This document shows positions 22,452 to 59,100 of a stretch of DNA of 64,000 nucleotides, one piece after another; position 1 is the first letter of the stretch; each line of letters starts with the position of its first letter. The stretch lies in NCBI GenBank assembly GCA_023667345.1, contig JAMPAF010000001.1, positions 119,873 through 183,872 on the forward strand, given 5' to 3'. A program made the translations under genes and the position numbers. This DNA comes from Clostridiales bacterium. GTDB taxonomy: Bacteria; Bacillota; Clostridia; Christensenellales; Borkfalkiaceae. The notes beneath the pieces are model-generated. The model saw only the letters and a program-made list of their open reading frames with translations. It was not told where the DNA came from and searched no databases.

Positions 22452-23240
22452 TTATTCCTTTGGAATAACAAAGCACACTTTATCCATTTCAGCTCTCATA
22501 AATTTATCCGAGTAGTGGACGTAAGTTTTGCCGACAAGCCTTTCGGGGCTGTCGCCCATCCAAAGCTCAACTACTTCACGTTTTGCCTTTTCGTCGCAGA
22601 TGGATGCGAACGTGTGCCGAAGCTGGTAAGGTACAACACCTTCGCCGAGTGCCTTTTTCATCATATCGAGCGTTCTATCGTAGGAAAGGGGCGATTTAAG
22701 CGGCGAATTGAAATTGAAGAATTTTTCTGCCTGACGGGGGATAGGTATCTTTTTGTATGCCTTTTTCCCGTTTTTTCTTTTTCCGTTCCTGCAAATTAAG
22801 AAGCCATTTTCAAAACGTGCTTCGTCGTCAATCTCGCAAGGGCGGAGTCCGAAGAAATACATAGCGAGAGCAAAATTCCTTATTCTGTCGTAGAACGGCT
22901 CTTTAAGGTTGGTAAGGAATTTAACAATCTGTTCGTCGCTTATTCTGTCCCTATTTTCACGCTCTGCGCGCTTGAAAGGTATCATATCAACGGGATTGAT
23001 GGTTATATTTCCGTTTGCCTTTGCGTACTTAAAAATGCCGTTAAACACCGTTCTCATATCTTCGTAACGTCTTGGGGTATCGAGTGCCTTCATAACTTCG
23101 TCGATGTCTTTCGTATGAATATCCCCGATAAGTTTGTTTTTAATTTCATCGGGAATACACCGTCTAATAAGGCTACTGTAGTCTTTCCACGTATTTTCCG
23201 CAACGGTCGTATGAAAGTTTTGGGTTAATCGGTTCGTCAA
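22452..23240 (-). CDS. Tyrosine recombinase (integrase), short at the N-terminus
   Basis: 262 residues. A core-binding domain (TTVAENTWKDYSSLIRRCIP onward, to about 90) is followed by the catalytic domain: Arg in GLRPCE (R123), YQLRHTFAS (R198, H199), the ELWMGDSP segment and the nucleophile region GKTYVHYSD (Y230 the best candidate). It would integrate and excise the island at the tRNA-Cys end. The only start available is a TTG with a stop codon two codons upstream. No arm-binding N-terminal domain is present, whereas relatives are usually 350-400 residues. A fragment related to this gene's own middle lies in another frame just upstream. The gene therefore looks rearranged and may be inactive or need another integrase. 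Confidence 0.8.
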   Translation of the reverse strand: MTNRLTQNFHTTVAENTWKDYSSLIRRCIPDEIKNKLIGDIHTKDIDEVMKALDTPRRYEDMRTVFNGIFKYAKANGNITINPVDMIPFKRAERENRDRISDEQIVKFLTNLKEPFYDRIRNFALAMYFFGLRPCEIDDEARFENGFLICRNGKRKNGKKAYKKIPIPRQAEKFFNFNSPLKSPLSYDRTLDMMKKALGEGVVPYQLRHTFASICDEKAKREVVELWMGDSPERLVGKTYVHYSDKFMRAEMDKVCFVIPKE

Positions 23241-28162: not shown

Positions 28163-30253
28163 ATGACAAACAAGATTTTAGATACGATGTGGGACGATAA
28201 TCCCATAGACATAACGCAGGAGGCGAATTTTATTTGGTCGATTGCCAACAAATTGCGCGGCTCGTATATGCCCGACCACTACGGCGACGTTATTATTCCC
28301 ATGACGATTTTGCGCCGCTTTGAATGTGCGCTCGAAAATAAAAAGAAAGCGGTAACGGTTGCCTTCAAAGCTGACCCCTCTCTTCCGTATAAAAAACTCT
28401 GCAAAATTTCGGGCTATCAATTTTACAACACAAGCGAATATAACCTTGCAGAACTTTGCAACGACTCCAAAAGCATTGCGGCAAACTTTAAGAATTACAT
28501 CAAAGGTTTTTCGCCTAACGTGCAAGAGATTTTCGGACAGCTCGAAATGGACAAGCACATTGACAAAATGGATAAGGACGGCTGTCTTTATACCGTAGTG
28601 CAAGCCTTTTCCACTCTTGACCTGTCTATCCAAACCTACGACAGCATTAAAATGGGGTATATATTTGAAAATCTTATCGGCAGGTTCTATCAGAACGTTG
28701 ACGCAGGACAGTATTACACGGGCAGAGATATAATCAAACTTCTTGTAGAGATTTTAATGGCGGAGGGGTGCGACGATATTTTTGACAGTCACAAGGTCAT
28801 CACCGTTCTCGACCAAGCCTGCGGAACGGGCGGTATGCTTTCAACCGCGTATTCATACATAATGCACTACAATCCCACTGCGGACGTAAAACTTTTCGGG
28901 CAGGAATTTATGGGGCAAACCTATGCCATAGGTCTTGCCGAAATGCTCATTAAAAATCAGGACGCGTCGAATTTCCGCCACGTCGATACCTTCAAAGAAG
29001 ATTGCTTTAAAGATACGAAAATGCGTTTTGTTATCGAAAACCCGCCGTTCGGCACGCCATGGTCGGGTAAGGACGCAAAGGCGGGGCAGGAAGAAGCCGT
29101 GCGTACCGAATTTAAAAAAGGCGAGTTCGAGAGCCGTTGGGGGCACGGACTTCCGAGCGGCGGCGACTCGCAAATGATTTTCTTACAATCCGCCGTGGAT
29201 AAAATGGACGATAAGTGCGGACGTGCCGCCATTATCGAGAACGGCTCGCCGCTGTTTAACGGCGATACCGCTTCGGGCGAAAGTCAAATCCGCCGTTGGC
29301 TGTTGCAAAAAGATTTAATCGAGGCGATTATCGCCTTGCCGACCGACTTATTTTACAACACGGGTATTCAGACCTATGTATGGATACTTTCCAAAAACAA
29401 GCGAAAAGAGCGCAAGGGCAAAATTCAGCTTATAAACGCCGCCGACATTTACCATAAACTGCGCAAGGCGGTAGGCAACAAAAAGAACGAAATTACCAAA
29501 GAGGACAGAAAGGTTATCACGCATTTGTATGCCGACTTTGTCCCCACCGACACCTGCAAAATTTTTGATAATACGGAGTTTTTGTACAGAGAGTATGCAG
29601 TAATGCAACCCCTGCAAAGAAGCTATGCCATCACCGAAGACCGCATAGAGCAAATGCTCGTTAAAGGTTCGCTTTCGGCTGTTTACGACGAAGCAAAGGT
29701 TGCGGAATATGAAAATATGGGCGTTGCTATCGAAGAGAAAGACAGAAAAAAGCATGAAAGTATGCTTGCAAACAAGCCGCTTTTCGATAGCGTTATACAA
29801 ATACTTAAAGCTAACGTTTCGGACAAGATTTATAAGGACCCGAAAGCGTTTATCGAATTGCTTACTTCGATATTGCCGATAGATAAAAAGCTGATTGAAA
29901 AAATTGCCGCGGGGCTTTCCGCCATGGATAAAACTGCGGAAATTCAGCGCGATAAAAAGGGCAATATTCTTTACGATAAGGAAACTTACGATAAGGAAAT
30001 AGTGAAATACACGGAAAGCGTAGAGGATTATATGGCGCGTGAGGTTTTGCCTTACGTACCCGACGCTCAGTGGTTTTGGGAAGAAAATTTGGGCGCAAAG
30101 AAGCCCGTTATAAAAATCGGTGCGGAAATACCTTTTACAAGGTATTTCTATAAATACAGTCAGCCGCAACCGAGCGACGAGCTCGCCGTAAAATTTATGG
30201 ACTTGGAATTAAGCGTAAGCGAAAGAATCGACAAACTGTTCGGGGATAAGTAA
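28163..30253 (+). CDS. hsdM: Type I restriction-modification DNA methyltransferase, M subunit
   Basis: 696 residues. An N-terminal helical HsdM_N domain (to about 150) is followed by the N6-adenine methyltransferase: motif I LDQACGTGGMLS (about 216-227) for S-adenosylmethionine, and motif IV NPPF (about 293-296) at the catalytic site. A long C-terminal helical part contacts the specificity subunit. The M2S complex methylates one adenine in each half of a split target and, with HsdR, restricts unmodified DNA. AAAGGAG lies just before the ATG. It is first in the operon hsdM, AbiJ-like pseudogene, hsdS, zinc-ribbon gene, hsdR. Confidence 0.95.
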   Translation: MTNKILDTMWDDNPIDITQEANFIWSIANKLRGSYMPDHYGDVIIPMTILRRFECALENKKKAVTVAFKADPSLPYKKLCKISGYQFYNTSEYNLAELCNDSKSIAANFKNYIKGFSPNVQEIFGQLEMDKHIDKMDKDGCLYTVVQAFSTLDLSIQTYDSIKMGYIFENLIGRFYQNVDAGQYYTGRDIIKLLVEILMAEGCDDIFDSHKVITVLDQACGTGGMLSTAYSYIMHYNPTADVKLFGQEFMGQTYAIGLAEMLIKNQDASNFRHVDTFKEDCFKDTKMRFVIENPPFGTPWSGKDAKAGQEEAVRTEFKKGEFESRWGHGLPSGGDSQMIFLQSAVDKMDDKCGRAAIIENGSPLFNGDTASGESQIRRWLLQKDLIEAIIALPTDLFYNTGIQTYVWILSKNKRKERKGKIQLINAADIYHKLRKAVGNKKNEITKEDRKVITHLYADFVPTDTCKIFDNTEFLYREYAVMQPLQRSYAITEDRIEQMLVKGSLSAVYDEAKVAEYENMGVAIEEKDRKKHESMLANKPLFDSVIQILKANVSDKIYKDPKAFIELLTSILPIDKKLIEKIAAGLSAMDKTAEIQRDKKGNILYDKETYDKEIVKYTESVEDYMAREVLPYVPDAQWFWEENLGAKKPVIKIGAEIPFTRYFYKYSQPQPSDELAVKFMDLELSVSERIDKLFGDK

Positions 30254-30254
30254 G

Positions 30255-31183
30255 ATGGAAAGAGGTTCTAAATCATTAAAAAAAGTGCAAATAAGAGGTG
30301 GGTTTAGTGATAGAAACCATATAAATGAAATTAGCACTGTTATTCAAATAAATGAATTTAGTGAACGCGTGAGAACTCAATTATATAATGGGTTAATATC
30401 ATTCTGACTAAAGATAGTGAATTACTTAATATTGATAATTTATATGTAAATATATTAGATAATGTTTATTGCGAAGTTATAGATAGTTTTGATAGGTATG
30501 CTGTTATTGTTTACGTGGAAAGATGCAAAAAATACATAAAAGGTACTTTTATGCAAGATACCTATGATGCAATTTTATCGTTAATTGAGTATATTGTTAA
30601 TTTTTTAACTTCTTCAATAAACAATCAATATCGGCAACCTGATTTCAATAATCAGGGTTATCCGATTTATTTTAATGAATATCAATATATGAATACACTA
30701 TTTGAAGTAGAATGCGTGGGGTATCGTTTTGTGGGCGACCAAATTGTTGCCATTACGGAGCAAACGGAGATAGAAGAAATAGAGCAGACTTTAAATAATT
30801 CAATAGGTGGTTGCAGAACACATATAGAAAAAGCAGTAGGTTTTTTAGCCGATAGAGAAAAGAAAGATTATAAAAATTGTATAAAAGAAAGCATTAGTGC
30901 TGTAGAGTCAATTTGTCAATTAATAACTGGAAATGATAAAGCAACATTGGGACAAGCATTAAAATTATTAAAAGACAAAGGAGTAAAAATTCATTCGGCA
31001 TTAGAGTCAGCTTTTTCAAAATTATATGGATATACTTCTGACGAGGGTGGAATACGCCATTGCGAGGGAATGTTTGAAAGTAACGTAACTTTTGAAGAAG
31101 CAAAGTTTATGCTTGTTAGTTGTAGTGCATTCGTTAATTATTTGATAGCGGAATATGGCAAATTGGGTGGTAAAGATGACTGA
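30255..31183 (+). pseudogene. AbiJ_NTD4-like abortive-infection gene, interrupted by a frameshift
   Basis: The ATG at 30255 follows the hsdM stop by one base and gives SLKKVQIRGGFSDRNHINEI...FSERVRTQLYNGLISF, then a stop at 30404-30406. In the +2 frame the sequence continues from 30389 as WVNIILTKDSELLNIDNLYV, and runs to 31183. Joining RTQLYN to WVNIIL restores the expected pattern of the AbiJ_NTD4 family, so one base (a T near 30389) seems lost. The C-terminal half is intact and typical: RTHIEKAVGFLADREKKDYK, SISAVESICQLI, LYGYTSDEGGIRH and FMLVSCSAFVNYL. A downstream GTG at 30515 could express a 222-residue fragment. Strongly AT-rich, unlike hsdM and hsdR, so probably a separate arrival in the operon. 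A sequencing error is the other explanation. Confidence 0.75.
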
Positions 31184-32453
31184 ACGGCAAATGAAAGATA
31201 GCGGAATTGCTTGGGTCGGCGAAATCCCGCAAGATTGGGAAACAAGACGAATTAAAAGCATTTTTTATATTATTGGTGGTAATGGATTCAATATAGAATT
31301 GCAAGGTAATGAAAGTGGGGATTACCCTTTTTGTAAGGCAAGCGATATTAGCAATGCAGGCAAATTTATAAATAAAGCCGCTAATTATGTTACAAAACAA
31401 ATTGCTATTGAAAACCATTATAATATTGTGCCTGTAAAGTCGATTGTTTTAGCGAAAATTGGTGAAGCGATGAAAAAGAACAACCGCTCAATTTCGTTGA
31501 AAGAGTGCTGTTTAGATAATAATTGTCAAGCTCTTGTTGCGCACCGCGATATAAACTACATTTTTTCATATTATTTATTGATGTGTATTGATATGAGGTG
31601 GTTTGATAATGCTGGGACGATTCCTTGCGTAAATAATAGAAAATTACTTGACTGTAAAATTCCATTCCCCCCTATTGCTGAGCAACAACAAATCGCAGAT
31701 TTTTTGGATAGAGAATGTGAAAAAATTGACGGTTTGAAAGCTGATATACAAACTCAAATAGATACCTTGGAACAATATAAACGTTCTATAATAACCGAAG
31801 CCGTAACGCACGGTCTTAATCCCGACGCCCCCATGAAAGACAGCGGCATTGCGTGGGTTGGCAATCTTCCACTTGAATGGAAAATTGGACGCATAGGCGG
31901 TCTGTATGAATTGCGAAATGAGAAAGTAAGCGATAAAGACTTTATGCCGTTATCTGTTACAATGAAAGGTATTTTACCACAGCTTGAAACAGCGGCAAAA
32001 ACAAACGACGGAGATAATAGAAAACTTGTCCGCAAGGGCGACTTTGCTATAAATAGCCGTTCAGATAGGCGCGGTTCTTGCGGCATTTCCGATTACGACG
32101 GCTCTGTTTCGTTAATCAATACAATTTTGAAACCGCGCAAGAAAATGAATGCAAGATATTATAACTGGCTTTTTCATACGCCTATATTTGCCGACGAATT
32201 TTATAAATGGGGACACGGAATAGTAGACGATTTATGGACTACGGGTTGGCAGGAAATGAAGCGTATTCAAATTCCCGTTCCGCCGCTTGACGAGCAACAG
32301 GCAATAGCCGAATATCTCGACAATAAATGCGCCGAAATCGAACAAGCAATAGCCGATAAAAAAGCGCAGCTCGATACTCTTGACGAATACAAACAATCGC
32401 TTATCTATGAATATATTACAGGGAAGAAAGAGGTGATAGATTATGAGTTATGA
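31176..32453 (+). CDS. hsdS: Type I restriction specificity subunit
   Basis: 425 residues from the ATG at 31176. Two target recognition domains: the first opens with MKDSGIAWVGEIPQDWETRR and ends with ADFLDRECEKIDGLKADIQT; the second opens with MKDSGIAWVGNLPLEWKIGR and ends with AEYLDNKCAEIEQAIADKKA. The coiled-coil spacers (IDTLEQYKRSIITEA and LDTLDEYKQSLIYEY) set the distance between the two half sites. The near-identical openings of the two halves are also similar at DNA level (about 30 bases), which can recombine to swap domains. The start overlaps the end of the AbiJ-like frame. No second hsdS or invertase is adjacent. Confidence 0.92.
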   Translation: MTERQMKDSGIAWVGEIPQDWETRRIKSIFYIIGGNGFNIELQGNESGDYPFCKASDISNAGKFINKAANYVTKQIAIENHYNIVPVKSIVLAKIGEAMKKNNRSISLKECCLDNNCQALVAHRDINYIFSYYLLMCIDMRWFDNAGTIPCVNNRKLLDCKIPFPPIAEQQQIADFLDRECEKIDGLKADIQTQIDTLEQYKRSIITEAVTHGLNPDAPMKDSGIAWVGNLPLEWKIGRIGGLYELRNEKVSDKDFMPLSVTMKGILPQLETAAKTNDGDNRKLVRKGDFAINSRSDRRGSCGISDYDGSVSLINTILKPRKKMNARYYNWLFHTPIFADEFYKWGHGIVDDLWTTGWQEMKRIQIPVPPLDEQQAIAEYLDNKCAEIEQAIADKKAQLDTLDEYKQSLIYEYITGKKEVIDYEL

Positions 32454-32697
32454 TATTGTAAAAGAGGAAAATCAACCCTGTCCTTGCGGTAAAGGTTTTG
32501 TTAATTATATTCTTGAGGAAAATGATTGGGGGCAATTCAGAGAAAACGTTTTTATTCAATGTGATAATTGCCAAACTAAATATACAGTTCAATCAAAATA
32601 TTTTTGTCCAAAGCCTAAACACGATTATACACTTTATTTTTTGGTAAAAAACGGGCAATCAATAGATTCTCCTGAAACAATAAAATTAGATTTTTAA
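32443..32697 (+). CDS. Small zinc-ribbon-like protein inside the restriction operon
   Basis: 84 residues overlapping the hsdS end by 11 bases and followed 10 bases later by hsdR. Two cysteine pairs, CPCGKG near residue 13 and CDNCQTKY near 46, are spaced for a zinc ribbon; another Cys lies in YFCPKPKHD. I do not recognise a named family. Tight coupling between hsdS and hsdR suggests it is made with the complex and may modulate it, for example as an anti-restriction or assembly factor; this is inference. Confidence 0.7.
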   Translation: MSYDIVKEENQPCPCGKGFVNYILEENDWGQFRENVFIQCDNCQTKYTVQSKYFCPKPKHDYTLYFLVKNGQSIDSPETIKLDF

Positions 32698-32707
32698 GGA
32701 ATACAAA

Positions 32708-35700
32708 ATGAACGATATACTTTCCGAAAAAGATTATCAGAATTACATAATGAACGTTCTCGAAAAGCAAAACGGCTACGTTATTCGCCCCGACACGAAG
32801 TACGACCGTAATTTTGCCATCGACAGAGAGCTTTTAATAAAGTTTTTGGACGATACCCAGCCCGAAACAATGTACGCTTTGCATAAAATTTTTAAAGATG
32901 CCACAGAAGAAACTGTCGTCAACTTTATCAATGCCGAAATCACCAAACCGAAAAGCAGCTTGCTGTATGTTCTCAAACACGGCGTTACGCTTTCCGGCTA
33001 TAAACTTGATTTAATGTACATAAAACCCGCCACCTCGTATAACGCCGATTTAATCAAATTGTACGAAAAGAATATCTTTTCCGTGATGAAAGAGGTATGG
33101 GCGAGCGACAAGGAACGCGTTGACCTTGTTATATTTCTGAACGGCTTTGCGGTTATGTCGTTCGAACTGAAATGTAATTTTGCGGGGCAGTCGTATCACG
33201 ACGCTATTGAGCAGTTTAAAAAGGACAGAAGTCCCAAAACGCGCCTATTCCTTTTTAAAGCCGGTTGCCTTGTAAACTTCGCCATGGATTTGCAGGAAGT
33301 TTATATGTGTACCCGCCTTTCCGGCGAAAGCTCTTACTTTCTGCCTTTCAATACGGGAAGCGGAAGCGGCGTGAACGCGGGCAAAGGCAACCCCGTTTAC
33401 GAGGACAAGTATTCCGTCTATTATATGTGGGACGATATTTTGCGGAAGGATACGGTTATCGACCTTATATCCGAATATATCTTTATCGACCGCAAGGAAG
33501 ATACGGACGAGGTTACGGGCAAGAAAACCGTCAAAGAGAAGCTGATATTCCCCCGCTATCACCAGTTGGACGTTATCCGTAAGACGGTTGCCGACGTAAA
33601 AGTGAACCGTTCGGAGCAAAACTATTTAATTCAGCACAGTGCGGGCTCGGGCAAGACAAATTCCATTGCATGGCTTGCGCACAGGCTTTCGTCTTTGCAC
33701 GATATGCACGACAAAATGATATTCGACAATATCATAATCTGCACGGACAGAGTCGTCGTCGACAGGCAGTTGCAAGCCGCTATTTTGGGGATAGAGCACG
33801 TTACGGGGCTTATTCGTGTTATGGGCGATAAGTGCACGGCGGCAGATTTGGCGGCGGCATTGCTCGGTTATATTACGGCAGACGGCAAAAGGAAATCTAT
33901 CGGCAGTCCGAAGATTATTGCAACCACCATACAAAAATTTCCGTTTATCGTCGATTCCGTAAAAAATTTAAAGGACAAGCGTTTCGCGGTGATTATCGAC
34001 GAAGCCCATTCTTCCACCGCGGGCAAGGATATGGCGGCGGTTACAAAGTCGCTCGGGTCGGATATCCTTGACGGGGAAGTTGACGCGCAGGATATAATTG
34101 TAAGCGAACTAAAGCGCACGGGCAAACAGGCAAACGTCGCCATGTTTGCGTTCACGGCAACACCGAAGCCGACAACTCTCGATTTGTTCGGCAGAGTAAA
34201 CGCAAAAGGGCAAAAGGAAGCTTTCCATCTGTATTCTATGAAGCAGGCAATTGAGGAGGGCTTTATTTTGGACGTGCTTGCGAACTTCACCGAATACGAC
34301 ACATATTACCGCTTGAACAAAGAAATTTCCGAGGACCCGCAATACAAGACGGTTGAAGCAAAGCGCCAGATTGCCCGCTTTGTGGAACTGCACGAAACGA
34401 ATATCGCGCAACGCGTTGAAGTGATTATCGAGCACTTCCGCACGACTGTTATAAATGAACTCGGCGGCATGGCAAAGGCTATGGTCATAACGGCTTCAAG
34501 GCTGAGCGCCGTAAAATACAGGCAGGCGTTTGAAGATTACGTTGCGAAAAAGGGCTATACCGATATTCACGCGCTTGTGGCGTTTTCGGGCAAAGTAAAG
34601 CTCGACGGCGACGAAACGGAATACACCGAAAGGCTTTTAAACGGCTTTTCGGAAGACAGATTGCCGAAAATGTTCGACGGCGACGATTACAACGTTTTGC
34701 TTGTGGCTAATAAATACCAGACGGGATTCGACCAACCCAAACTTTGCTCCATGTACGTTTTGAAGAAGTTACGGGGCGTGAACGCCGTGCAGACGTTATC
34801 CCGCCTAAACAGGACTTGTCCGCCGTGGGATAAAAAGACTTTCATTCTCGATTTCGTAAATAAGTATGAGGACATTATCAAGGCGTTCGAGCCGTATTAT
34901 ACGACGACGCTTCTTGCAAACTCGGTTACGCCTTCCGCCGTGTATGATTTGGAAGCCAAGCTCGACGGCTATTTGATTATTGACCCGTACGATATTCAAA
35001 TGGCGGCGGAAATCGTCTGTAAAAAGATTATCGAAGCAAAGGACAAAAACCGGCTTCGGTTTTATCTGCAACGCGCCGAAAAGAAGATTAAGGAATATGA
35101 ACCGGAGAAGCAACGCGAAATTGTTGCGACGATAAGGCACTTTATAAGGTTCTATGAGTTTTTAATTCAGGTATCGTGTTTTGAGGACGCGGAACTTCAT
35201 AAAAAGTATTTATTTTTAACGTATTTGACAGTGTTTATCAACATACGCAATGCGGGCGGCGGCTTCGATTTGAGCGACAAGATTCGGGCGGATAACTTCG
35301 TGCAGAAAAAGGGCGCACAGCATACCGAAACAAAGATTGTTTCCAACCCCGTTATCAAACTTCCTTCTGTCGAGCAGTTTAATCTTACAGAGGACGCAGT
35401 AAAACGTTTGTCGGAAATTATAGACGAAATTAACAGCCGCACAGGCAAGCAATACGATAACGATATCGTTATAAAAGCTATGCTTCAAATTAAGGACCTG
35501 CTTAAAAAATCTCCTACCCTCCGCGAAAGCGCGAAGGCAAATACGGAGCAAGACTTTGCATTCCCGTATTACGAAAGCGCCGACGAGGTTTTAATAGAAG
35601 GCTTGTCGCAGAATCAGGATTTCTTTACGTTGCTTTTGAACAACGACGATATAAAGAAAGAGATGCTCGGCATATTCCTTTCGGAAATTTACAAAGAGTT

Positions 35701-35713
35701 TAGAAACAGTTAA
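32708..35713 (+). CDS. hsdR: Type I restriction endonuclease, R subunit
   Basis: 1001 residues. The N-terminal PD-(D/E)xK nuclease is visible in RVDLVIFLNGFAVMSFELK (Asp, then Glu153-x-Lys155). The translocase follows: Walker A AGSGKTNS (from 312), DEAH at 431-434 in VIIDEAHSS, MFAFTATPK as motif III, NVLLVANKYQTGFDQP and LNRTCPP as later helicase motifs. The C-terminal helical region docks on the M2S core. It pumps DNA and cuts at a distance from unmethylated targets. It is last in the operon, followed by a strong terminator. Confidence 0.95.
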   Translation: MNDILSEKDYQNYIMNVLEKQNGYVIRPDTKYDRNFAIDRELLIKFLDDTQPETMYALHKIFKDATEETVVNFINAEITKPKSSLLYVLKHGVTLSGYKLDLMYIKPATSYNADLIKLYEKNIFSVMKEVWASDKERVDLVIFLNGFAVMSFELKCNFAGQSYHDAIEQFKKDRSPKTRLFLFKAGCLVNFAMDLQEVYMCTRLSGESSYFLPFNTGSGSGVNAGKGNPVYEDKYSVYYMWDDILRKDTVIDLISEYIFIDRKEDTDEVTGKKTVKEKLIFPRYHQLDVIRKTVADVKVNRSEQNYLIQHSAGSGKTNSIAWLAHRLSSLHDMHDKMIFDNIIICTDRVVVDRQLQAAILGIEHVTGLIRVMGDKCTAADLAAALLGYITADGKRKSIGSPKIIATTIQKFPFIVDSVKNLKDKRFAVIIDEAHSSTAGKDMAAVTKSLGSDILDGEVDAQDIIVSELKRTGKQANVAMFAFTATPKPTTLDLFGRVNAKGQKEAFHLYSMKQAIEEGFILDVLANFTEYDTYYRLNKEISEDPQYKTVEAKRQIARFVELHETNIAQRVEVIIEHFRTTVINELGGMAKAMVITASRLSAVKYRQAFEDYVAKKGYTDIHALVAFSGKVKLDGDETEYTERLLNGFSEDRLPKMFDGDDYNVLLVANKYQTGFDQPKLCSMYVLKKLRGVNAVQTLSRLNRTCPPWDKKTFILDFVNKYEDIIKAFEPYYTTTLLANSVTPSAVYDLEAKLDGYLIIDPYDIQMAAEIVCKKIIEAKDKNRLRFYLQRAEKKIKEYEPEKQREIVATIRHFIRFYEFLIQVSCFEDAELHKKYLFLTYLTVFINIRNAGGGFDLSDKIRADNFVQKKGAQHTETKIVSNPVIKLPSVEQFNLTEDAVKRLSEIIDEINSRTGKQYDNDIVIKAMLQIKDLLKKSPTLRESAKANTEQDFAFPYYESADEVLIEGLSQNQDFFTLLLNNDDIKKEMLGIFLSEIYKEFRNS

Positions 35714-35808
35714 AACATTTTGCGGAAAATTTGTCGGAAATTTGAGCAACAAATCGAATGTGAAAGTGTCCTTAAAAGGAATAGTTTATGAAATAAAAAA
35801 AAGGAAAA

Positions 35809-35848
35809 GGGCATCACTCGGAAAGCGAGTGATGCCCTTTGTTGTTTT
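35809..35848 (+). terminator. Terminator of the type I restriction operon
   Basis: GGGCATCACTCG pairs with CGAGTGATGCCC, followed by TTTGTTGTTTT. The remaining gap to 36008 shows no other feature. Confidence 0.85.
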
Positions 35849-36008: not shown

Positions 36009-36335
36009 TCATTTTATGTACTCTATAAATTTCGCTAACATTTTTTGTCCGTTTTTAGAAACGTTTTTCATTCCCAAAACAACCTGTTCCATTTCAACCG
36101 TGCGCTTGTCGTCTGAGTCAAAGAATTGCCACAGCTCAATATTGAGCGCGTCACAGACGGCGCAGAGCGTTTGAAAATTAGGCAATGCTTTCCGCCTGCG
36201 GATTTGGTAGATGGAAGAAATGCTCGTTTCGGAAAGCCGGCTCAACTGAATAAACGATAATCCGCTTTTTTTCAGGAAAAAATCAAGCCGCTTAAAGAAT
36301 CGTTCAGACGTCCAATACTCAATGTTTCTCTTCAT
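36009..36335 (-). CDS. Cro/C1-type regulator divergent from the serine recombinase
   Basis: 108 residues. Helix-turn-helix at about 12-70: FLKKSGLSFIQLSRLSETSI, SSIYQIRRRKALPNFQTLCA, ALNIELWQFFDS. The C-terminal 35 residues are helical (VLGMKNVSKNGQKMLAKFIE) and probably mediate dimerisation. The ribosome site AAAAGGAGG precedes the ATG. It faces away from the recombinase gene across a gap that carries a 14-bp inverted repeat. It most likely controls that gene and itself, thus timing excision of the element. Confidence 0.8.
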   Translation of the reverse strand: MKRNIEYWTSERFFKRLDFFLKKSGLSFIQLSRLSETSISSIYQIRRRKALPNFQTLCAVCDALNIELWQFFDSDDKRTVEMEQVVLGMKNVSKNGQKMLAKFIEYIK

Positions 36336-36617: not shown

Positions 36618-38450
36618 ATGGCGGATAATCGGGAGCGTGAACAGATAAGACAAGCCTATGCTATTAAAGATACGGATACACCGACAAGAACAATTCCGGC
36701 GACTAGAAAAATCACCATTAACGAAGATGACCGTCCGCTGAACGTATGCGCTTATTGCCGCGTATCGACGGGAAACGACGAACAACTGTCGTCATTTGTT
36801 TTACAGCAGGAACATTATAATCAGCTTGCAAAGTCACATAAAAGCTGGAACTTAAAGCATGTGTATGCCGACGAGGGTATATCGGGAACGTCGCTAAAAC
36901 ATAGGAACAGCTTCAATGAAATGATAGCGGCTTGCCGCCGCGGAGAATATGACTTAATAGTTACCAAAAGCGTTTCAAGATTTGCGAGAAACGTAGTCGA
37001 CTGCGTCTCGCTTGTCCGTGAACTGAAACATCTGAATCCGCCTGTGGGAGTATTTTTCGAGACGGACTCTATTTATACATTATCGGAAGAATCCGAACTG
37101 AAATTAAATCTTTTTGCCAGTGTAGCGCAAGCTGAATCGGAGAAGAAGAGCGAAAGTATGAATTGGTCGCTGAACGAGAGGTTCAAGCATAATAAGCTCT
37201 TAACACCGGAATTATACGGATATAGGCGACCGAGAGATTTGTCGGGGCATTATGTCAAGTACGGTATATTGGAAATCAAGGAATCGGAAGCGGTAATTGT
37301 TCGTTTCATATTCAATGCGTTTTTGGCAGGCTTTACATTAGAACGTATAGCCGAGTTATTAACCGAGATGAAAGTTAAAACCAAGCTCGGCAATACGAAT
37401 TGGAATGTCGGGTCGCTGGCATATATTATCCGCAACGAAAGATATTGCGGTAGCGTTCTTACCTGGAAAACGTTTACCGCAGATATATTCGAGCATAAAA
37501 AGAGAAAGAACCGCCATAACCGTGACCAATGTTATTACTCAGACCATCACCCCGCAATAGTATCGGTTGAAACGTTCGAGGCGGCGCAATCTTTGATTTA
37601 TAACAGACGCCGCGGAATGAGGGGCGGATTGCATATTATGCAAGTAATTGACGACGGGGTATTTCAAGGATATGTGCCTATTAATCACCGTTGGGCTAAT
37701 GATGACCCGAATGAATATTACAACGCTTCCGAAAGTGTAGAAGAACGGAAAAATGACCGCAAAATACGGCGTTCGGCGTTTAGCGCGTTTGACTTGACCG
37801 GATATCAGGTGGTGCGAGGGCAGTTCCTGACAGCGAGAACGGAATTGCCCTGCATGACGGTTTCAAGCGGGAAAATAATGTTTAATACCGCTTGCGGAAA
37901 GAAATTGCAGGACTATCCGCACATACAGTTATTGTTGCATCCTAATGAAAGAAAAATGGCTATTCGTCCGTGCGGGAGAGATGACGCTTTCAGTATACCC
38001 TGGCGCAAACAAAACTCGGAGCAGCCGATTATGATTAAAACGTTGTCGTGTCCGTTCTTCATTAAAGCGCTTATGCAGATAATGGACTGGAATCCCGATT
38101 TCAGTTATAGAATTTCAGGCACGTGGATAGAGAAGGGCACGGATTGCATAATAGTATTTAATCTAACGAAAGCAATGCCGATTGCCGAAGTGGTAAACGA
38201 AGAGGAACGAAAATCTATATGCAAAAGGCGAATGGCAGTCTGCCCCGAAGAGTGGGAAGATTCGTTCGGCGATGAATTTTATGAATTCAGTATGGATAAC
38301 GAATTATATTATCTAAAATCTGTTCCGAATTTGAATAGCGACGTGAAGTGCAGAAACGTCGACGGGCAACAACTTTCTCTGTTGACATATGCGGAAGTTT
38401 TGGAAAGTGCTGAAAAAATAAAGACGGGAGTAATAGACGCTGATGAGTAA
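36618..38450 (+). CDS. Large serine recombinase with an extra C-terminal domain of unknown function
   Basis: 610 residues. The resolvase domain has CAYCRVSTG with the nucleophile Ser50, YADEGISGTS and SVSRFARNVVDCVSLVREL. A recombinase DNA-binding domain (about 210-320, LYGYRRP...ERIAELLTEMKVKTKLGNTN) follows. The zinc-ribbon/coiled-coil end of standard large integrases is absent. Instead residues about 390-600 form another domain: GYQVVRGQFLTARTELPCMT, KIMFNTACGKKLQDYPHIQL, LLHPNERKMAIRPCGRDD and FSYRISGTWI. The same domain makes up the next three small genes. The gene presumably integrates and excises the surrounding element. The ribosome site AACGGAGGCAC precedes the ATG; the stop overlaps the next start by 8 bases. 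Confidence 0.85.
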   Translation: MADNREREQIRQAYAIKDTDTPTRTIPATRKITINEDDRPLNVCAYCRVSTGNDEQLSSFVLQQEHYNQLAKSHKSWNLKHVYADEGISGTSLKHRNSFNEMIAACRRGEYDLIVTKSVSRFARNVVDCVSLVRELKHLNPPVGVFFETDSIYTLSEESELKLNLFASVAQAESEKKSESMNWSLNERFKHNKLLTPELYGYRRPRDLSGHYVKYGILEIKESEAVIVRFIFNAFLAGFTLERIAELLTEMKVKTKLGNTNWNVGSLAYIIRNERYCGSVLTWKTFTADIFEHKKRKNRHNRDQCYYSDHHPAIVSVETFEAAQSLIYNRRRGMRGGLHIMQVIDDGVFQGYVPINHRWANDDPNEYYNASESVEERKNDRKIRRSAFSAFDLTGYQVVRGQFLTARTELPCMTVSSGKIMFNTACGKKLQDYPHIQLLLHPNERKMAIRPCGRDDAFSIPWRKQNSEQPIMIKTLSCPFFIKALMQIMDWNPDFSYRISGTWIEKGTDCIIVFNLTKAMPIAEVVNEEERKSICKRRMAVCPEEWEDSFGDEFYEFSMDNELYYLKSVPNLNSDVKCRNVDGQQLSLLTYAEVLESAEKIKTGVIDADE

Positions 38451-39039
38451 AAACGAGTACTTCGAAGAGCTGACGGAAGGCGAAGAAACCGAAACCGTCG
38501 ACCTTGCAGGATTTCAGGTTGCGAAGGCAGAGCTGTTTGCACATACGAGAGAACCTGCCATAACGGTATGGGATGATAAAATTAAGTTCAATATGGCTTG
38601 CCTTCGGCGTTTCCCCGGCGTAACACATATCCAGCTTTTAATTCATCCCGATGAAAAACGGCTTATTGTGCGCCCGTGCAATGCCGATGCGCCCGATTCG
38701 CTTAGGTGGGCAAGCGGCGGTGGGGAAAAAGAAATCAAAGCGCGGGATATGCTTTGCCGGATATTCGCCGCCAAATTATTCGAGCTTATGAACTGGGATA
38801 AGCAGTACAGATATAAAATGTTGGGCAAACCTGCCGTTTGCAACAACGAAGCTCTGTATCTGTTCAAACTGACGGATTTTGAATTGTTCGTCGGAACGGG
38901 TACAAAACGGAAGCGGTCATACTTGCCTGCGGATTGGCGTGAATACTTCGGCGTACCCGTGGAACTGCACGAGGAGCAGTATAAAATAAATTTAGCCGAA
39001 GGATATATTTCAACTAATAAAGTAGGAGAGATAAAATGA
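38443..39039 (+). CDS. Second copy of the recombinase C-terminal domain, stand-alone
   Basis: 198 residues with no catalytic recombinase part. Matches to the end of the preceding protein are clear: GFQVAKAELFAHTREPAITV, KIKFNMACLRRFPGVTHIQL, LIHPDEKRLIVRPCNADAPD, LFELMNWDKQYRYKMLG, and a final LPADWREYFGVPVELHE like CPEEWEDSFGDEFYEF. Overlap of 8 bases upstream and four bases (ATGA) downstream makes it part of a translationally coupled set. Function unknown. It could partner the recombinase on DNA or set the direction of the reaction. Confidence 0.75.
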   Translation: MSKNEYFEELTEGEETETVDLAGFQVAKAELFAHTREPAITVWDDKIKFNMACLRRFPGVTHIQLLIHPDEKRLIVRPCNADAPDSLRWASGGGEKEIKARDMLCRIFAAKLFELMNWDKQYRYKMLGKPAVCNNEALYLFKLTDFELFVGTGTKRKRSYLPADWREYFGVPVELHEEQYKINLAEGYISTNKVGEIK

Positions 39040-39473
39040 CAGACGATATGATTATGACAGAAGTTGATTTAAGCGGCTTTCAAGTTGTAAACAGTCAATA
39101 TTTTAGCAGCCTGACTGCCCCGTCTATGACGATATGGCCCGATTCGATTTCATTTAGCGGAGCAACGTTTGCAACACTGAATAATTACGACGCTATCTCT
39201 ATATTGTTAAGCGCAAATGAGAAAAAAATACTGATTACGGCTACTTCGTCACATGACCCTAACGCAATCGAATGGAGAAAAAACAGCAGCACACAAAAAT
39301 ATTGCAAATTAAGCTGTGCCACATTCGCGCGTAAACTTTTCGAGCGATGGAAATTAGATGAAAAATGCAGATATCGCACTCTCGGCAGATTGGTACGGGC
39401 AAATAAAAAGATAATGATATTATTTGATTTTTCACAATGCGAAATTTGGCGTGAAGGGAAAGCGGTAAAGTAA
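39036..39473 (+). CDS. Third copy of the recombinase-associated domain
   Basis: 145 residues: GFQVVNSQYFSSLTAPSMTI, SISFSGATFATLNNYDAISI, LLSANEKKILITATSSHDPN, then FARKLFERWKLDEKCRYRTL and IMILFDFSQCEIW. It lines up over its whole length with the two preceding copies but is shorter and lacks the last EEW..FG motif. It starts in an ATGA overlap. No other domain is visible and the role is unknown. Confidence 0.7.
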   Translation: MTDDMIMTEVDLSGFQVVNSQYFSSLTAPSMTIWPDSISFSGATFATLNNYDAISILLSANEKKILITATSSHDPNAIEWRKNSSTQKYCKLSCATFARKLFERWKLDEKCRYRTLGRLVRANKKIMILFDFSQCEIWREGKAVK

Positions 39474-39474
39474 C

Positions 39475-39837
39475 TTGTCTAAAATAACTTTTATATCGTT
39501 TTATTGTAAAACGGGCTGCATACACATTTTTAAGGAGGCGGTAAAAGCGATAGGTCTGCCGAAGTTTATCCGCTTCCGAATAAACGTAAACACCTCGTCG
39601 CTTATTTTAGAACCGTTTGACCGTTTGTCGATGACCTCTTTTCGCGTGCCGAATAATTTAAATGATGAGGACGGCAATATGGAAGTTCATAGCAAGGGCT
39701 TTACTTACGGTCTTTCGCAACGGTTCGGTTGGACGAATGGGCGCTCCTACCGCGTCCCCGGCAAAATACTTACTAAACAAAGAATAGTATTGTATGATTT
39801 GTCGGAAGCGCAAGAAATACGAAACTCAAAAAGATAA
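39475..39837 (+). CDS. Fourth, diverged copy of the recombinase-associated domain
   Basis: 120 residues from a TTG one base after the preceding stop. The first strand part differs (ITFISFYCKTGCIHIF), but KFIRFRINVNTSSLILEPFD corresponds to the HIQLLIHPDEKRLIVRP region and FGWTNGRSYRVPGKILTKQR followed by IVLYDLSEAQEI corresponds to MNWDKQYRYKMLG...YLFKLTDFEL. The order of blocks is the same as in the other copies. TTG starts are rare, so the start is less certain. It ends the operon. Confidence 0.6.
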   Translation: MSKITFISFYCKTGCIHIFKEAVKAIGLPKFIRFRINVNTSSLILEPFDRLSMTSFRVPNNLNDEDGNMEVHSKGFTYGLSQRFGWTNGRSYRVPGKILTKQRIVLYDLSEAQEIRNSKR

Positions 39838-39962: not shown

Positions 39963-39998
39963 AAGCGGCGGAAATGTTTTCGTCGCTTATTGCTTTTA
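39963..39998 (+). terminator. Probable terminator of the recombinase operon
   Basis: AAGCGGCGGAAA can pair with TTTTCGTCGCTT with G-T wobbles, followed by ATTGCTTTT. The rest of 39838-40133 is AT-rich, with a TATAAT at about 40098-40103 that may be the -10 of the next operon. Confidence 0.5.
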
Positions 39999-40133: not shown

Positions 40134-40529
40134 ATGAACTATTTCAAAGTTAAAGCTAAGTGCGGGCATGTCGGACGAGGGCGCTACATAATTAAAGACT
40201 TTTTCATAAAAGCCGAAAGCGGAAAAGACGCGGCGCGAATAGCTCGCTTTCTTCCAAGAGTTAAGCACGATTGGAAGGACGCAATTATTTCCGTTACGGC
40301 AGTAAGCAAAAACGAATATGATTTAGGACAGGAACTTCACAGTCGGGATTTGTATTTCAATATGACAAACTCTTCCGAACAGCGAATATACGGCGCGGTA
40401 GATTATGAACAGGTTTTCGACCGTGAAAAACCTGAAAGAAAGAAAAAAGATAAAGACACCTCGTATTATTGCAAATTAGCAAGAATACAGCAAAAAGATT
40501 TTAAAACACGTCTTGCGGAGGCTATTTAA
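40134..40529 (+). CDS. Small conserved protein of unknown function (KCGHVGRGRY family)
   Basis: 131 residues. The N-terminus MNYFKVKAKCGHVGRGRYII followed by KAESGKDAARIARFLPRVKH and DWKDAI is familiar from Firmicutes mobile-element proteins, but I know no function for it. CGH near the start could be part of a metal site. The C-terminal 40 residues are rich in Lys and Arg. AAAGGAG seven bases before the ATG. Its stop is directly followed by the ATG of the next gene, so it opens a three-gene operon with two large helix-turn-helix proteins. Confidence 0.7.
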   Translation: MNYFKVKAKCGHVGRGRYIIKDFFIKAESGKDAARIARFLPRVKHDWKDAIISVTAVSKNEYDLGQELHSRDLYFNMTNSSEQRIYGAVDYEQVFDREKPERKKKDKDTSYYCKLARIQQKDFKTRLAEAI

Positions 40530-41954
40530 ATGGATAAAAAGAAGATAGGTAAATTTTTAAAAATGTTGCGTGAGGAAAAGGATTTAACTCAAATCCGATT
40601 ATCAACTAAATTTGACGGCGTCTATTCCGATGCGTTAATAAGCAAGTGGGAAAGAGGCGAATCCGTTCCGAATATTGACGATTTGAAAGTGTTGGCAGAG
40701 TATTTCAACGTTACCGTCGATGAAATTTTAAACGGCGCAAGGTATGAAGAAATCAATTTTGAAGAGAAATATTTCATCTATAATAACGAGTGGTGCTCCC
40801 GTTACAACCCCGACGATTTGTACAATGTAAGAGAAGAACAGGAACTCTTGATAGAAACACGCTTCAAAAAGCTTTTAAGAAAAATGGTTGGTGATGGATT
40901 ATCGTTATCCGAAGATAAAGAATTTGATTTCATAGTTAATCATTTCTATCAAATTTTTATTCCCGCAATTGAAAGTATCGACAAAGACGCTTACGAAAAT
41001 TGTGGACTTAGCGAGTGTGTATGGGTTGAGGATATAAAAAGTTATGCTCACGATATGTTGCCCGAAGGTTTAGCAGATATAAAATTTGAAATTTATAAGC
41101 AAGCCTCTTTAATGCATAATTGTACTATCGACGAGAAGTTTTGGGAAGCAAACAAGAAATTTGTATTTATTGCACGGCAAAATATTTGGGATGATATAAG
41201 CGACGTTATCGACGATGATGAAGAAGAGGTTCGTAGCAGAATATTAAACATAGAAGATTACGAAAAGGATATTTTATTGGCGGCGCTTCAGACAATAAAC
41301 GTAACGCATAGATATGGCAAATTTAAAGAATACGAAAAGCGTTACGGACGCAAATACGATGAAGAGCAATTGACTATACGTGCGATAAAACTTTTAATTG
41401 AATGTGGAGCGAAATTGAATAAAGCGTTGCTCGGTTATTGGCAAGTTATAACACTTAAATACTCTATTATAGATAAGTTACTTGACATACATAAAAAGTA
41501 TAAAGCGCCGTTGCTTGTGCCTGTCTGTGAACACGGACATTACCAATATTTTACTGTGGACAATACAGCAAACAACAGAGCAAAATTGGGCATTAGATAT
41601 GAAAACGAAGATTTTGACGAAAGCGATTATCAAGAATTAGAGAAGAGATTATATGCGGGAGAAAGGACTATTTTAAAGCCGTATAAAGATTGGATTTGCG
41701 GTTCTGATGAACGGGGCGCTTTTCTCCATGCTCGTAAGCAAATGTTGAATATGTCGTTAGAAGCGTATTACGAAAGTCGGGATGAAAAAATGACAGAAAA
41801 ACTATTGAACGATTTAAATAGGCTGTCTTTAAAGGATATCAGAGAAAAATATTTCCCGACGGAATACAGAGGTGAATATATGGATGACGCGAATTCTATG
41901 AGCCCCGAAGAATTTAAGAAAAAGTATTATATAAAGGAAATCCCAAATGAATAG
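40530..41954 (+). CDS. Helix-turn-helix protein with a large unknown C-terminal region
   Basis: 474 residues. Residues 5-68 are a Cro/C1 domain: KFLKMLREEKDLTQIRLSTK, SDALISKWERGESVPNIDDL, LAEYFNVTVDEILNG. The remaining 400 residues are acidic, mostly helical, with no recognised motif; LLVPVCEHGHYQYFTVDNTA near residue 330 is a possible metal or ligand patch. The start is one base after the preceding stop and the end overlaps the next gene by 8 bases. The large domain is far longer than in simple repressors, so it may sense a ligand or partner. I do not recognise the family. Confidence 0.7.
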   Translation: MDKKKIGKFLKMLREEKDLTQIRLSTKFDGVYSDALISKWERGESVPNIDDLKVLAEYFNVTVDEILNGARYEEINFEEKYFIYNNEWCSRYNPDDLYNVREEQELLIETRFKKLLRKMVGDGLSLSEDKEFDFIVNHFYQIFIPAIESIDKDAYENCGLSECVWVEDIKSYAHDMLPEGLADIKFEIYKQASLMHNCTIDEKFWEANKKFVFIARQNIWDDISDVIDDDEEEVRSRILNIEDYEKDILLAALQTINVTHRYGKFKEYEKRYGRKYDEEQLTIRAIKLLIECGAKLNKALLGYWQVITLKYSIIDKLLDIHKKYKAPLLVPVCEHGHYQYFTVDNTANNRAKLGIRYENEDFDESDYQELEKRLYAGERTILKPYKDWICGSDERGAFLHARKQMLNMSLEAYYESRDEKMTEKLLNDLNRLSLKDIREKYFPTEYRGEYMDDANSMSPEEFKKKYYIKEIPNE

Positions 41955-43008
41955 TTTTATAAAAAGTTTAATGGAAGAAAGAAATTTAAAACAAAAAGAT
42001 TTAGCGGTAATATTAGGGATAAGTTCTGCTGCCATAAGTCAATGGGCCGAGGAAGCAACAAAGATGAATGTAGAACATTTATATGCCTTATCAAAACTTT
42101 TTCACGTTACCATGGACGAGCTTCTTGAAGGAAAAAGAACGAAAGAGTCGCTTGAAGATAAGTGGAGTAGAGAATACGATATTAACGAGGATGCGGCAAA
42201 AACCGCGTTTATTGACGGCGAAAAAGAAGTGGTATTAAAATATTTAGCAGCAATACGGAAAGCCGACGATAGATTTTTTGTACTATTTGAGAAAAAAATA
42301 ATAGGCAAAATATCGGAAAACGAATTAAAAGAGTGGGAATATCTAAAACAGTTTTATGACAGAAATATACGCAGGTGTCATTTGCTTGATGATATCCGTA
42401 TTGGTTGGAGTGATGATGGCGACGCCATTGTATTGAATGCCTTAACAGACAAGATAGGAATAAATAGCCCCAAAGCTATAATTTGGGAACTCCGAAAAGT
42501 TTATAATATAACAAATTTCGGTGTGGGGATAACAGCGAATATAGAGGTCGTACCGATAGATAATTACTATAATAATTATGATAACGATTTATCGTACGTT
42601 GAAGACGATAAAGATATATTTTTTGCGGTATATTATGCTCTTCCGCCTATTGAAAAAGATAGATTTCTGACTTCGGAGTATCAAAACGGAAACAAGGCAG
42701 AATTTCTGTTTGAGTTAATAAAACGCGGCGGCAATATACTTTATACCCCGAGAGACTTAAAAATCACTAATTACAATTATAAAGATTTTGATGGAGTGGA
42801 AGGTGAAATGAAATCCGTGTCCGAACTCAATAAAGCACACGCGGTAATTTTTGAAATATTCAGCAATTATTCTTTTGCAACCTACGAACAATATTGTGCG
42901 CTCATAAATGTTCCTCGGATGAGCCAAATTGCAATGGAAGCAAAGGATAAAGAAAAAAATCCTATTAAATATTGGAAATTTATAAAGAATAGCCAAGTAT
43001 TGATTTGA
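41947..43008 (+). CDS. Second helix-turn-helix protein with a large unknown C-terminal region
   Basis: 353 residues. Cro/C1 domain at 3-62: SLMEERNLKQKDLAVILGIS, AAISQWAEEATKMNVEHLYA, LFHVTMDELLEGKRT. The following ~290 residues are helical at first (SREYDINEDAAKTAFIDGEK, FFVLFEKKIIGK) and then mixed. The layout parallels the preceding gene (helix-turn-helix, EGKRTKESLEDKW-like linker, long domain), so the two may be distant relatives that act together. It overlaps the preceding gene by 8 bases. Function unknown; a mobile-element control or defence role fits the place but is not shown. Confidence 0.7.
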   Translation: MNSFIKSLMEERNLKQKDLAVILGISSAAISQWAEEATKMNVEHLYALSKLFHVTMDELLEGKRTKESLEDKWSREYDINEDAAKTAFIDGEKEVVLKYLAAIRKADDRFFVLFEKKIIGKISENELKEWEYLKQFYDRNIRRCHLLDDIRIGWSDDGDAIVLNALTDKIGINSPKAIIWELRKVYNITNFGVGITANIEVVPIDNYYNNYDNDLSYVEDDKDIFFAVYYALPPIEKDRFLTSEYQNGNKAEFLFELIKRGGNILYTPRDLKITNYNYKDFDGVEGEMKSVSELNKAHAVIFEIFSNYSFATYEQYCALINVPRMSQIAMEAKDKEKNPIKYWKFIKNSQVLI

Positions 43009-43174: not shown

Positions 43175-43324
43175 ATGCGATATGCGTCTGTCGGCAAAGC
43201 CCCGACTTTTGTAAACTGTACCGACGAAACCGAGCAACGCAATTACTTTCCCTTTTATGTAACGGGAATAAACTTGCCGAAACTTTACAAAAAAAATTAT
43301 CGAACACAAAGGAGAACACAATGA
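43175..43324 (+). CDS. Possible micro-protein coupled to the next gene
   Basis: 49 codons starting MRYASVGKAPTFVNC and ending in TGA that overlaps the ATG of the gene at 43321 (ATGA). The frame stays open upstream to about 43133 (ITVKEWVKMRYASVGKAP) without a better start. The composition looks protein-like, and it could be a small partner or the tail of a decayed gene. No clear ribosome site. Confidence 0.3.
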   Translation: MRYASVGKAPTFVNCTDETEQRNYFPFYVTGINLPKLYKKNYRTQRRTQ

Positions 43325-47819: not shown

Positions 47820-48100
47820 ATGTTATGCGTGGGGAATTAAGAATGCAGAATTAAAACAAATGCGTAATGCGCAATTAAGGTAAAGATTTAATTGAACCAA
47901 CCTCTTTCGTCTGCTTACGCAGCCACCTTCCCCTTCAAAGTGGAAGGCGAGAGGTTGCGCGGAATTCTTGCTTTCCCCTTTGAAGGGGAAAGTGTCACGC
48001 AGTGACGATAGAGGTTGATTTAATTCTTAATTCTTAATTCTTAATTCTTAATTCTTAATTCTTAATTCTGCATTCTCTAAGTATAAATTTTTTCACAACC
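47820..48100. repeat. Dispersed repeats and a 7-copy TTAATTC array
   Basis: CAACCTCTTTCGTCTGCTTA and CCTTCCCCTTCAAAG elements are followed by seven perfect tandem copies of TTAATTC (48020-48068), then TGCATTC. No gene is seen. Confidence 0.8.
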
Positions 48101-58739: not shown

Positions 58740-59100
58740 GGTTAGGGCAAATTCATAATTCGGAATGCGGAATTCGGAATTAGGAATTAAGGTCGGAGTA
58801 GTCAACCTCTATCCCCTCTACGAGGTACTCTTCGCACCCGCCGTAAGGGAAACGGCGGGTTTGGTCGCCGTTCGCGCGGGACATATGCGCTCACTGCTCT
58901 CGCAACGCCAAAACAGCGCACAGCGCTGTTTTGAGAAATGCGTTGCTCGTCCTTCAAAGGGGAAAGCAAGGGGTTTGCGCGTTATTCTCGCCTTCCACTT
59001 TGAAGGGGAAGGTGGCTGCGTAGCAGACGAAAGAGGTTGGTTCAATTAATTGTTCCTTAGCACAATTACGCATTCCGCATTCCGCATTCCGAATTAATCT
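58740..59100. repeat. Dispersed repeat composite
   Basis: Heptad words (AATTCGGAATGCGGAATTCG) flank a full composite: CAACCTCTATCCCCTCTACG, the insert GTAAGGGAAACGGCGGGTTT to CTCGCAACGCCAAAACAGCG (also at 52865 and 63960), CCTTCAAAGGGGAAAGC, CCTTCCACTTTGAAGGGGAA, GACGAAAGAGGTTG, then CGCATTCCGCATTCCGAATT. The two ends form a long inverted repeat. No gene. Confidence 0.8.

Follow-up and report, generated by a model that had tools for sequence, protein, structure and literature searches.

In the window, a stretch of 64,000 nucleotides of DNA, four genes follow one another on the plus strand. The first, R (36618-38450, 610 aa), codes for a serine recombinase with a resolvase catalytic domain (residues 44-191) and a recombinase DNA-binding domain (residues 223-327). 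Fused to these is a further domain (37788..38207, plus strand) with a core of R residues ~391-530, which recurs in the next three genes. B (38443-39039, 198 aa) overlaps R by 8 bases and consists of a free copy of this domain and a C-terminal extension; beyond the domain core, R likewise aligns with B up to about residue 583. The second free copy, C (39036-39473, 145 aa), overlaps B by 4 bases, and a third and diverged copy, D (39475-39837, 120 aa), begins with a TTG start codon after a gap of 1 base. The gene coordinates and the three junctions given in the initial annotation were correct on recheck.

The left edge of the transcription unit is marked by a strong terminator-like hairpin (35806..35840, plus strand) downstream of type I restriction genes, the 15-pair stem of which is the longest in the region. 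3' of D a terminator-like hairpin of 11 pairs is followed by a T-rich tail (39963..39988, plus strand) and is the probable end of the operon. As 4.8 of the 11 terminator-like sites found in the region were already expected from shuffling, we attach little weight to weak single sites. A divergent gene (36009..36335, minus strand) also belongs to the module and codes for a Cro/C1-type HTH regulator of 108 aa (Pfam HTH_26, E 2.9e-5). Its relatives occupy the equivalent position upstream of related modules, with 66% (L020), 57% (L101-L103), and 44% (L021) identity.

The initial annotation had claimed that the same domain is present in four consecutive genes and had named fold and profile comparisons as a check. 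For the R tail, B, and C the claim held in pairwise Smith-Waterman comparisons, in which each score was set against 1000 shuffles per pair. The z values were 42.8 for R tail/B, 35.0 for B/C, and 26.5 for R tail/C, and in each of these pairs the score was reached by 0 of 1000 shuffles. The pairwise signal of D was weak (R tail/D z=4.6, 3/1000 shuffles; C/D z=3.5, 8/1000; B/D z=1.9, 56/1000). Since this signal was doubtful, the homology of D was settled by profile-profile comparison of the family alignments, which gave 98.7% for B/D (E 1.9e-16), 98.4% for C/D (E 5.7e-15), and 98.6% for R/D (E 5.2e-16); R/B reached 100% (E 2.5e-46) and B/C 99.9%. On these sequence comparisons the R tail, B, and C are clearly homologous, and D is homologous by profile comparison. 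The R tail and B, the two of the four regions that were modelled, also agree in predicted secondary structure, namely at 122 of 151 aligned residues, compared with a mean of 50 and a maximum of 70 in shifted controls. An assignment of B to DUF6128 (PF19623; 17.4 bits, E 0.0045) was rejected, as it lies below the Pfam gathering cut-off of 27. Neither Pfam, at its cut-off, nor the PDB, at E up to 1, gave a sequence match to B, and nothing on DUF6128 was found in the open-licence literature.

Serine recombinases are recognized by a catalytic serine in the motif RVS[TS] and by arginines in SRxxR. Both motifs are present in the window R; among the matches listed, RVS[TS] was found in 146 of 148 R proteins and an SRxxR-like motif in 142 of 148 (91 of the 148 remained after removal of close copies). 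The window R matches PF00239 (Resolvase N-terminal, E 1.1e-24) and, following the catalytic domain, PF07508 (Recombinase, E 1.6e-22), as do all 47 aligned relatives. The zinc ribbon PF13408 was detected neither in the window R nor in any of the 47 aligned R proteins, and a CxxC between residues 300 and 450 is present in 2 of the 148 R proteins among the matches listed. In contrast, three other recombinases tested from the same phages do match PF13408. Models of R (mcc03e6fecc5c) and B (m6c033fc6fb7e) were of middling confidence (pLDDT 72.5 and 74.0, respectively). Serine integrases align with the R model chiefly as far as residue ~336, and at this middling confidence none of its helices beyond residue 330 exceeds 18 residues. 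An MraZ/AbrB-like DNA-binding fold was considered; the structural similarity to a DNA-binding protein was weak and came from these same models. Judged from sequence and model, R is a serine recombinase with intact catalytic motifs, without a detectable zinc ribbon or a predicted long coiled coil. According to excerpts of PMC3783163, att-site discrimination and the control of synapsis reside, in canonical integrases, in the zinc ribbon and its inserted coiled coil.

Relatives of the module were collected in a genome scan (best 80 of 125 relatives), a first viral-contig scan (best 80 of 101), and a second viral scan (best 80 of 128, 79 of them new). The short loci L001-L011 of the window's own genome and of G017 and G022 were excluded beforehand, as were a more distant gene pair (L015) and the remainder of a phage (L019). 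Of the 167 loci examined 165 contain B. Of the two without it, L039 has a broken-up B frame, and L098 is cut at the contig start and shows a single domain copy beside ParB1 and DUF6551. All counts refer to loci and not to independent events, the L-numbers including near-identical contigs.

The initial annotation had also pointed to the gene neighbourhood of related recombinases, and the small genes adjoin these almost always. Among the matches listed with at least 1.2 kb of upstream DNA, B has an R-type recombinase upstream at 151 of 153 loci, the exceptions being L089 and L090. R and B overlap or are at most 50 bases apart at 142 of the 153 listed loci, and at nine the gap is 393-792 bases; the commonest junction is the 8-base overlap (46 of 151 among the matches listed). 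Scanning from the recombinase side, we found the start of B less than 1 kb from the end of R at 53 of 53 listed loci, this set comprising the loci whose R carries the scan pattern and is followed by at least 500 bp. Identity to the window proteins falls to 29% for R, 22% for B, 33% for C, and 16% for D, with frames, order, and motifs kept. The module goes beyond a duplication in one window: the family is old and has at least two fixed layouts.

In the branch of the window the order is R-B-C-D, and the relatives looked at have a gene for an AAA_25-type ATPase before R; C is confined to this branch (25 of 165 loci among the matches listed). In the larger branch two further genes come after R-B-D, and the latter of them contains DUF6551, a relative of the ParB-CTPase fold. 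Both extra genes were present at 120 of the 165 listed loci and DUF6551 at 122, and PF20188 (DUF6551) was matched in both larger-branch proteins tested. Excerpts of PMC12704722 report CTP or ATP binding in vitro by phage DUF6551 fusions; its main text contains no occurrence of recombinase or integrase. At 26 loci among the matches listed a resolvase-fold open reading frame is situated just upstream of R, in which the catalytic motifs are absent (RVS[TS] 0/26, SRxxR-like 0/26).

The window module has lost the upstream ATPase gene, and its surroundings form a mosaic island. Among the window open reading frames scanned around the module, no DUF6551 or AAA partner lies beside it, no ParB or ParA match as in a ParABS partition system was found, and three tyrosine recombinases in a row, as in Tn554-like elements, are absent; the tyrosine integrase found there is a short fragment only (22452-23240). 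The window copy is a reduced example of the module family.

The module is located on mobile elements of gut bacteria (Clostridia) and their viruses. In several genomes its ends adjoin ordinary chromosomal genes. A module-holding segment of G073, at most 8.26 kb long, is missing from the relative G107, and one of G081, at most 5.85 kb long, is missing from the relative G194. The latter site is a hot spot and not a clean empty site, because the junction holds apparent tails of other recombinases. Ten contigs were looked at for further recombinases: in five (L026, L031, L040, L041, and L074) PF07508 is matched by R alone and no PF00589 is present, and the remaining five carry other recombinases. 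Contigs without other recombinases may hold less than the whole element. Within the fetched DNA another open reading frame with a recombinase profile was found at 89 of 165 listed loci, and one of at least 400 aa at 84 of 165. Two cpaF elements were opened (G066 and G068), both with three large open reading frames in a row at the far end, which are tyrosine recombinases by Pfam in G066 and similar-looking in G068; cpaF elements may be moved by these other enzymes. In G062 another serine recombinase pair is found about 54 kb from the module, where the module's own prophage probably ends. Since many carriers also encode ordinary recombinases, R may not always be the integrase. One module copy is found on a 247-kb circular record, about 2.5 kb from a gene resembling ParA by eye.

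On balance, we favour the explanation that the module encodes a serine recombinase that is heteromeric and belongs to mobile elements, the domain present both in cis and in trans taking the place of zinc ribbon and coiled coil. The proposal is based on the homology, the gene order, the coupling, the near-obligate linkage, the catalytic motifs, the lack of a detectable zinc ribbon, and the mobile-element location. The module would be the site-specific recombination unit of integrative elements in Clostridia and their phages. R would be the active recombinase, with a catalytic domain, a recombinase domain for the att arm, and then a predicted beta-rich domain. B, C, and D, as free copies of the R tail domain, would be translated together with R and would assemble with it into a complex bound to the attachment sites. 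There they could act in trans in discriminating attP from attB, in admitting only the right synapse, and in setting the direction. As the companion proteins are free copies of the recombinase's own tail, a multi-subunit machine is suggested, and since they are encoded with R in a single coupled operon, they resemble structural subunits more closely than a classical directionality factor. This case is strengthened by the catalytically dead resolvase-fold partner at 26 loci. It counts against it that an integrase role leaves the DUF6551 and AAA partners unexplained. Neither of the two outcomes that the initial annotation had named as refuting was obtained. Of the initial proposal of a hetero-oligomeric machine or of several directionality subunits, the functional unit is supported by homology and near-invariable linkage, whereas a subunit rather than a directionality role of B, C, and D is something that we infer.

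More tentatively, the module could be a split machine, in which one active catalytic subunit, a dead catalytic twin in some lineages, and two or three free tail copies are assembled on the attachment sites under a nucleotide-binding gate. The gate would be the DUF6551 ParB-CTPase-fold protein in one branch and the AAA_25 ATPase in the other, and the choice of site and the direction would depend on how the paralogous subunits are distributed over the half-sites. For serine integrases we found no description of such a half-site logic in the open-licence literature.

A rather unlikely alternative is that the module is a second recombination system beside an ordinary integrase, which would resolve dimers of circular phage or plasmid DNA or maintain such DNA in a partition-like way, with the help of the ParB-fold or AAA proteins. 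The other serine or tyrosine recombinases in many carriers would fit such a role, as would the DUF6551 gene that ends the larger-branch layout, the ATPase gene before R in the window-branch relatives, and the copy near a ParA-like gene on the circular record. However, there are chromosomal modules beside ordinary genes and no other recombinase on contigs of 43-76 kb, modules are missing at the equivalent place in G107 and G194, and the window copy has neither partner adjacent to it.

A role of B, C, and D as directionality factors, or as regulators binding to the R tail, with several copies giving several switch states, is improbable. Directionality factors are normally made apart from the integrase, and to our knowledge none has been described as a copy of a domain of its integrase; in both respects B, C, and D differ, B being so closely coupled to R at 142 of the 153 listed loci. 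In favour of such factors, binding of a directionality factor to the phiC31 integrase is reported to take place via the zinc domain (title of a reference in PMC10083194), the coiled coil governs synapsis (excerpts of PMC3783163) and the repeated domain occupies its place, and solved integrase-factor complexes exist (9dxf and 9tep). That the small genes are functionless by-products of an unequal duplication of the recombinase tail would agree with the lost ATPase gene and the mosaic island of the window copy but is highly improbable, being contradicted by the conservation of frames, order, and motifs in both deep branches (at identities as low as 29% in R and 16% in D).

For the heteromeric recombinase favoured here we found no precedent: excerpts of a survey of large serine recombinases (PMC10083194) describe no such arrangement, the main text on the Heliusviridae (PMC9226167) contains no occurrence of recombinase or integrase, and the open-licence literature yielded nothing on heteromeric, paralogous, or catalytically inactive large serine recombinases. 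attP/attB discrimination and the one-way reaction are usually ascribed to the zinc ribbon and the coiled coil, and a widespread lineage without both parts and with several copies of another domain would be a natural test of this explanation. The module is also a possible source of recombinases with direction and target settable by separate subunits. It gives a likely role to genes that occur in many clostridial genomic islands and that, in gut phages (Ca. Heliusvirales records), carry the annotation hypothetical.

Among known systems, the phage DUF6551 proteins of the ParB-CTPase fold have a counterpart in the larger branch and none in the branch of the window. The paired serine recombinases of clostridial elements are frequent neighbours of the module; the two members of the single pair tested are complete enzymes with zinc ribbons, whereas the partners in the module are single domains. 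R is similar to CcrA/CcrB of SCCmec over the catalytic and recombinase domains (CcrB 77 bits, cut-off 900). With the integrases of phiC31, Bxb1, A118, and SPbeta R shares the resolvase catalytic domain (RVST, SRxxR) followed by PF07508, and its model aligns to their structures over residues ~32-336. In contrast to these, the R family has no detectable zinc ribbon (0/47) and, in the model, no long helices after residue 330, and it carries another domain, of which two or three free copies are also encoded. An integrase with a small partner protein is also known from the directionality factors of SPbeta and phiC31 (gp3), whereas the two or three partners of R are paralogs of its own tail, encoded with it in one coupled operon.

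The recombinase gene R (36618-38450) and the three genes that follow it, B (38443-39039), C (39036-39473) and D (39475-39837), lie exactly where the initial annotation had placed them, and all junctions between them were confirmed. Pfam assigns a Resolvase domain (residues 44-191) and a Recombinase domain (223-327) to R. It had been proposed that the C-terminal tail of R and the three small proteins are copies of one domain. In pairwise alignments with 1000 shuffles per pair, the homology among B, C and the tail of R is unmistakable (z 26-43). The pairwise similarity of D to the other copies is doubtful (z 1.9-4.6), but profile comparison makes its membership secure (98.4-98.7%, E 6e-15 or better). 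In the AlphaFold models (mean pLDDT 74.0 for R and 72.5 for B), strands and helices follow the same order in both proteins. Their state agrees at 122 of 151 aligned residues, whereas shifted controls average 50 and reach 70 at most. Within the window's own assembly (83% complete) the four copies are the only matches, and a relative of B is present in 3 of the 61 genomes searched, its own included.

Scans based on B covered the best 80 of 125 loci in genomes and the best 80 of 101 in viral contigs; protein searches found relatives in 23 phage records and one plasmid record. All four phage records opened that carry an annotated taxonomy belong to Ca. Heliusvirales. B is present in 165 of the 167 loci examined. 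The suggested neighbourhood search bore out the linkage, as an R-type recombinase is encoded upstream of B in 151 of 153 loci with at least 1.2 kb of upstream DNA. The two genes overlap or are separated by up to 50 bases in 142 of these 151; wider gaps amount to 393 bases in locus L051 and 709-792 bases in eight others. Among the 165 loci, D was recognised in 148, C in 25, and the ParB1 and DUF6551 genes together in 120; C and the ParB1/DUF6551 genes never occur together. A tree built from 88 R proteins sets the window's branch (15 rows) apart by a single branch with 100% support. Scanning viral contigs with the R tail (best 80 of 128 loci) yielded 79 new loci. B starts less than 1 kb after R in 73 of them, the contig ends in four, and two have no callable two-domain R because the contig starts inside R. 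Because B fits the scan pattern as well, we restricted the recount to loci in which R carries the pattern itself. Of these 57 loci, 53 extend at least 500 bp downstream, and B is found in all 53.

In 26 of the 165 loci, 23 of these being viral contigs, an open reading frame of about 190-250 residues either adjoins the start of R or overlaps with it (e.g., L143, 1079-1735; L147, 1072-1698; L178, 1264-1875). Its product is picked up by the recombinase catalytic profile; with Pfam Resolvase, three of four proteins tested score just below the cut-off and that of L077 above it. None of the 26 contains RVS[TS] or SRxxR, and in 25 of them IR[YF]FN occupies the catalytic position. In R proteins, RVS[TS] is kept in 146 and an SRxxR-like motif in 142 of 148. 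Given these dead resolvase-fold proteins and the free tail copies, both halves of the enzyme therefore have non-catalytic free paralogs in some parts of the family. Smaller proteins of this kind also seem, by eye, to precede R in L016 and to follow DUF6551 in L060.

In the window the module is bracketed by a strong hairpin terminator on the left (35806-35840) and another on the right (39963-39988). A divergent HTH gene (36009-36335) precedes R, and relatives carry one at the same place. An AAA-ATPase-like gene (326-350 residues) lies directly 5' of R in L020, L021, L100-L103 and the genomes of L026 and L031; the one tested, from L020, is AAA_25 by Pfam. The window has no such gene, the homology to L020 skipping from 36532 into R.

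The module sits in a variable stretch reaching from tRNA-Cys (end 22308) to a gene at 43321 that the relative G012 shares. Type I restriction genes and a fragment of a tyrosine integrase lie in the same stretch of the window. The island (22309-43320) follows a tRNA Val-Gly-Cys cluster, and G012 has other DNA there, with a tRNA-Leu. The restriction-modification genes hsdM, hsdS and hsdR occupy 28163-35713, a gene for an AbiJ_NTD4-domain protein (30515-31183) lying between hsdM and hsdS. Right after tRNA-Cys, a short minus-strand frame (22452-23240) that weakly matches N-terminal domains of tyrosine integrases is probably a decayed integrase. To the right of the module, 40134-43008 encodes a 131-residue protein without Pfam match and two large proteins (474 and 353 residues) with N-terminal HTH domains; apart from the window itself, none of the three had a match at E 1e-5 among the fetched loci searched. 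Comparison of part of the window with the whole window and its genome revealed dispersed repeats of about 100-250 bases at 47837-48080, 58951-59081, 5525-5642 and other places.

Carriers of the module include phages and elements that split cpaF, the T2SSE profile being cut at position 230-231 of 370 (L052, L054); by eye the split looks alike in L053 and L058. In genome G062 a comEC-type gene is cut at one edge and retains the Competence domain together with the initial third of Lactamase_B; Pfam gave no match for the small remaining piece, which was identified by eye. Further copies adjoin ftsH, T2SSF genes (L067, L074) and an spmA-like gene (Gate profile below cut-off). Competence- or pilus-type genes (T2SSE, T2SSF, Competence domains) host or adjoin such elements in L052, L054, L043, L067 and L074, and by eye in L053 and L058, so that several hosts are represented. 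A segment of at most 8.26 kb holding the module in the genome of L040 is missing from its relative G107, as is one of at most 5.85 kb in the genome of L031, of the window's own branch, from the relative G194. The near-identical viral contigs L102 and L103 differ by about 3.9 kb cutting into an ordinary serine recombinase gene.

R could simply be the integrase of these elements. It is the sole PF07508 match, with no PF00589 match, on five of ten contigs examined (L026, L031, L040, L041, L074), where the whole element may exceed the contig. Counting against this reading, the other five contigs encode other recombinases, a further frame matching the recombinase profile is found in the fetched DNA of 89 of the 165 loci (at least 400 residues in 84), and three tyrosine recombinases lie at the far end of the cpaF element of G066.

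No description of the R-B-C-D plan was found in the open-licence literature searched. The catalytic half of R is of an already known kind, and the model of R aligns with the solved serine integrases SPbeta, Bxb1, phiC31 and A118 up to about residue 336. The few integrase rows with longer ranges have an rmsd near 18 and therefore show no match to the tail. The PF13408 zinc ribbon was found in none of 47 aligned R proteins, which sets R apart from canonical large serine integrases; all three other recombinases tested from the same phages match it. In an A118-type integrase the zinc ribbon touches the att half-site and a coiled coil inserted in it governs which synapses form (PMC3783163). At the place of this zinc ribbon and coiled coil, the R lineage has another domain.
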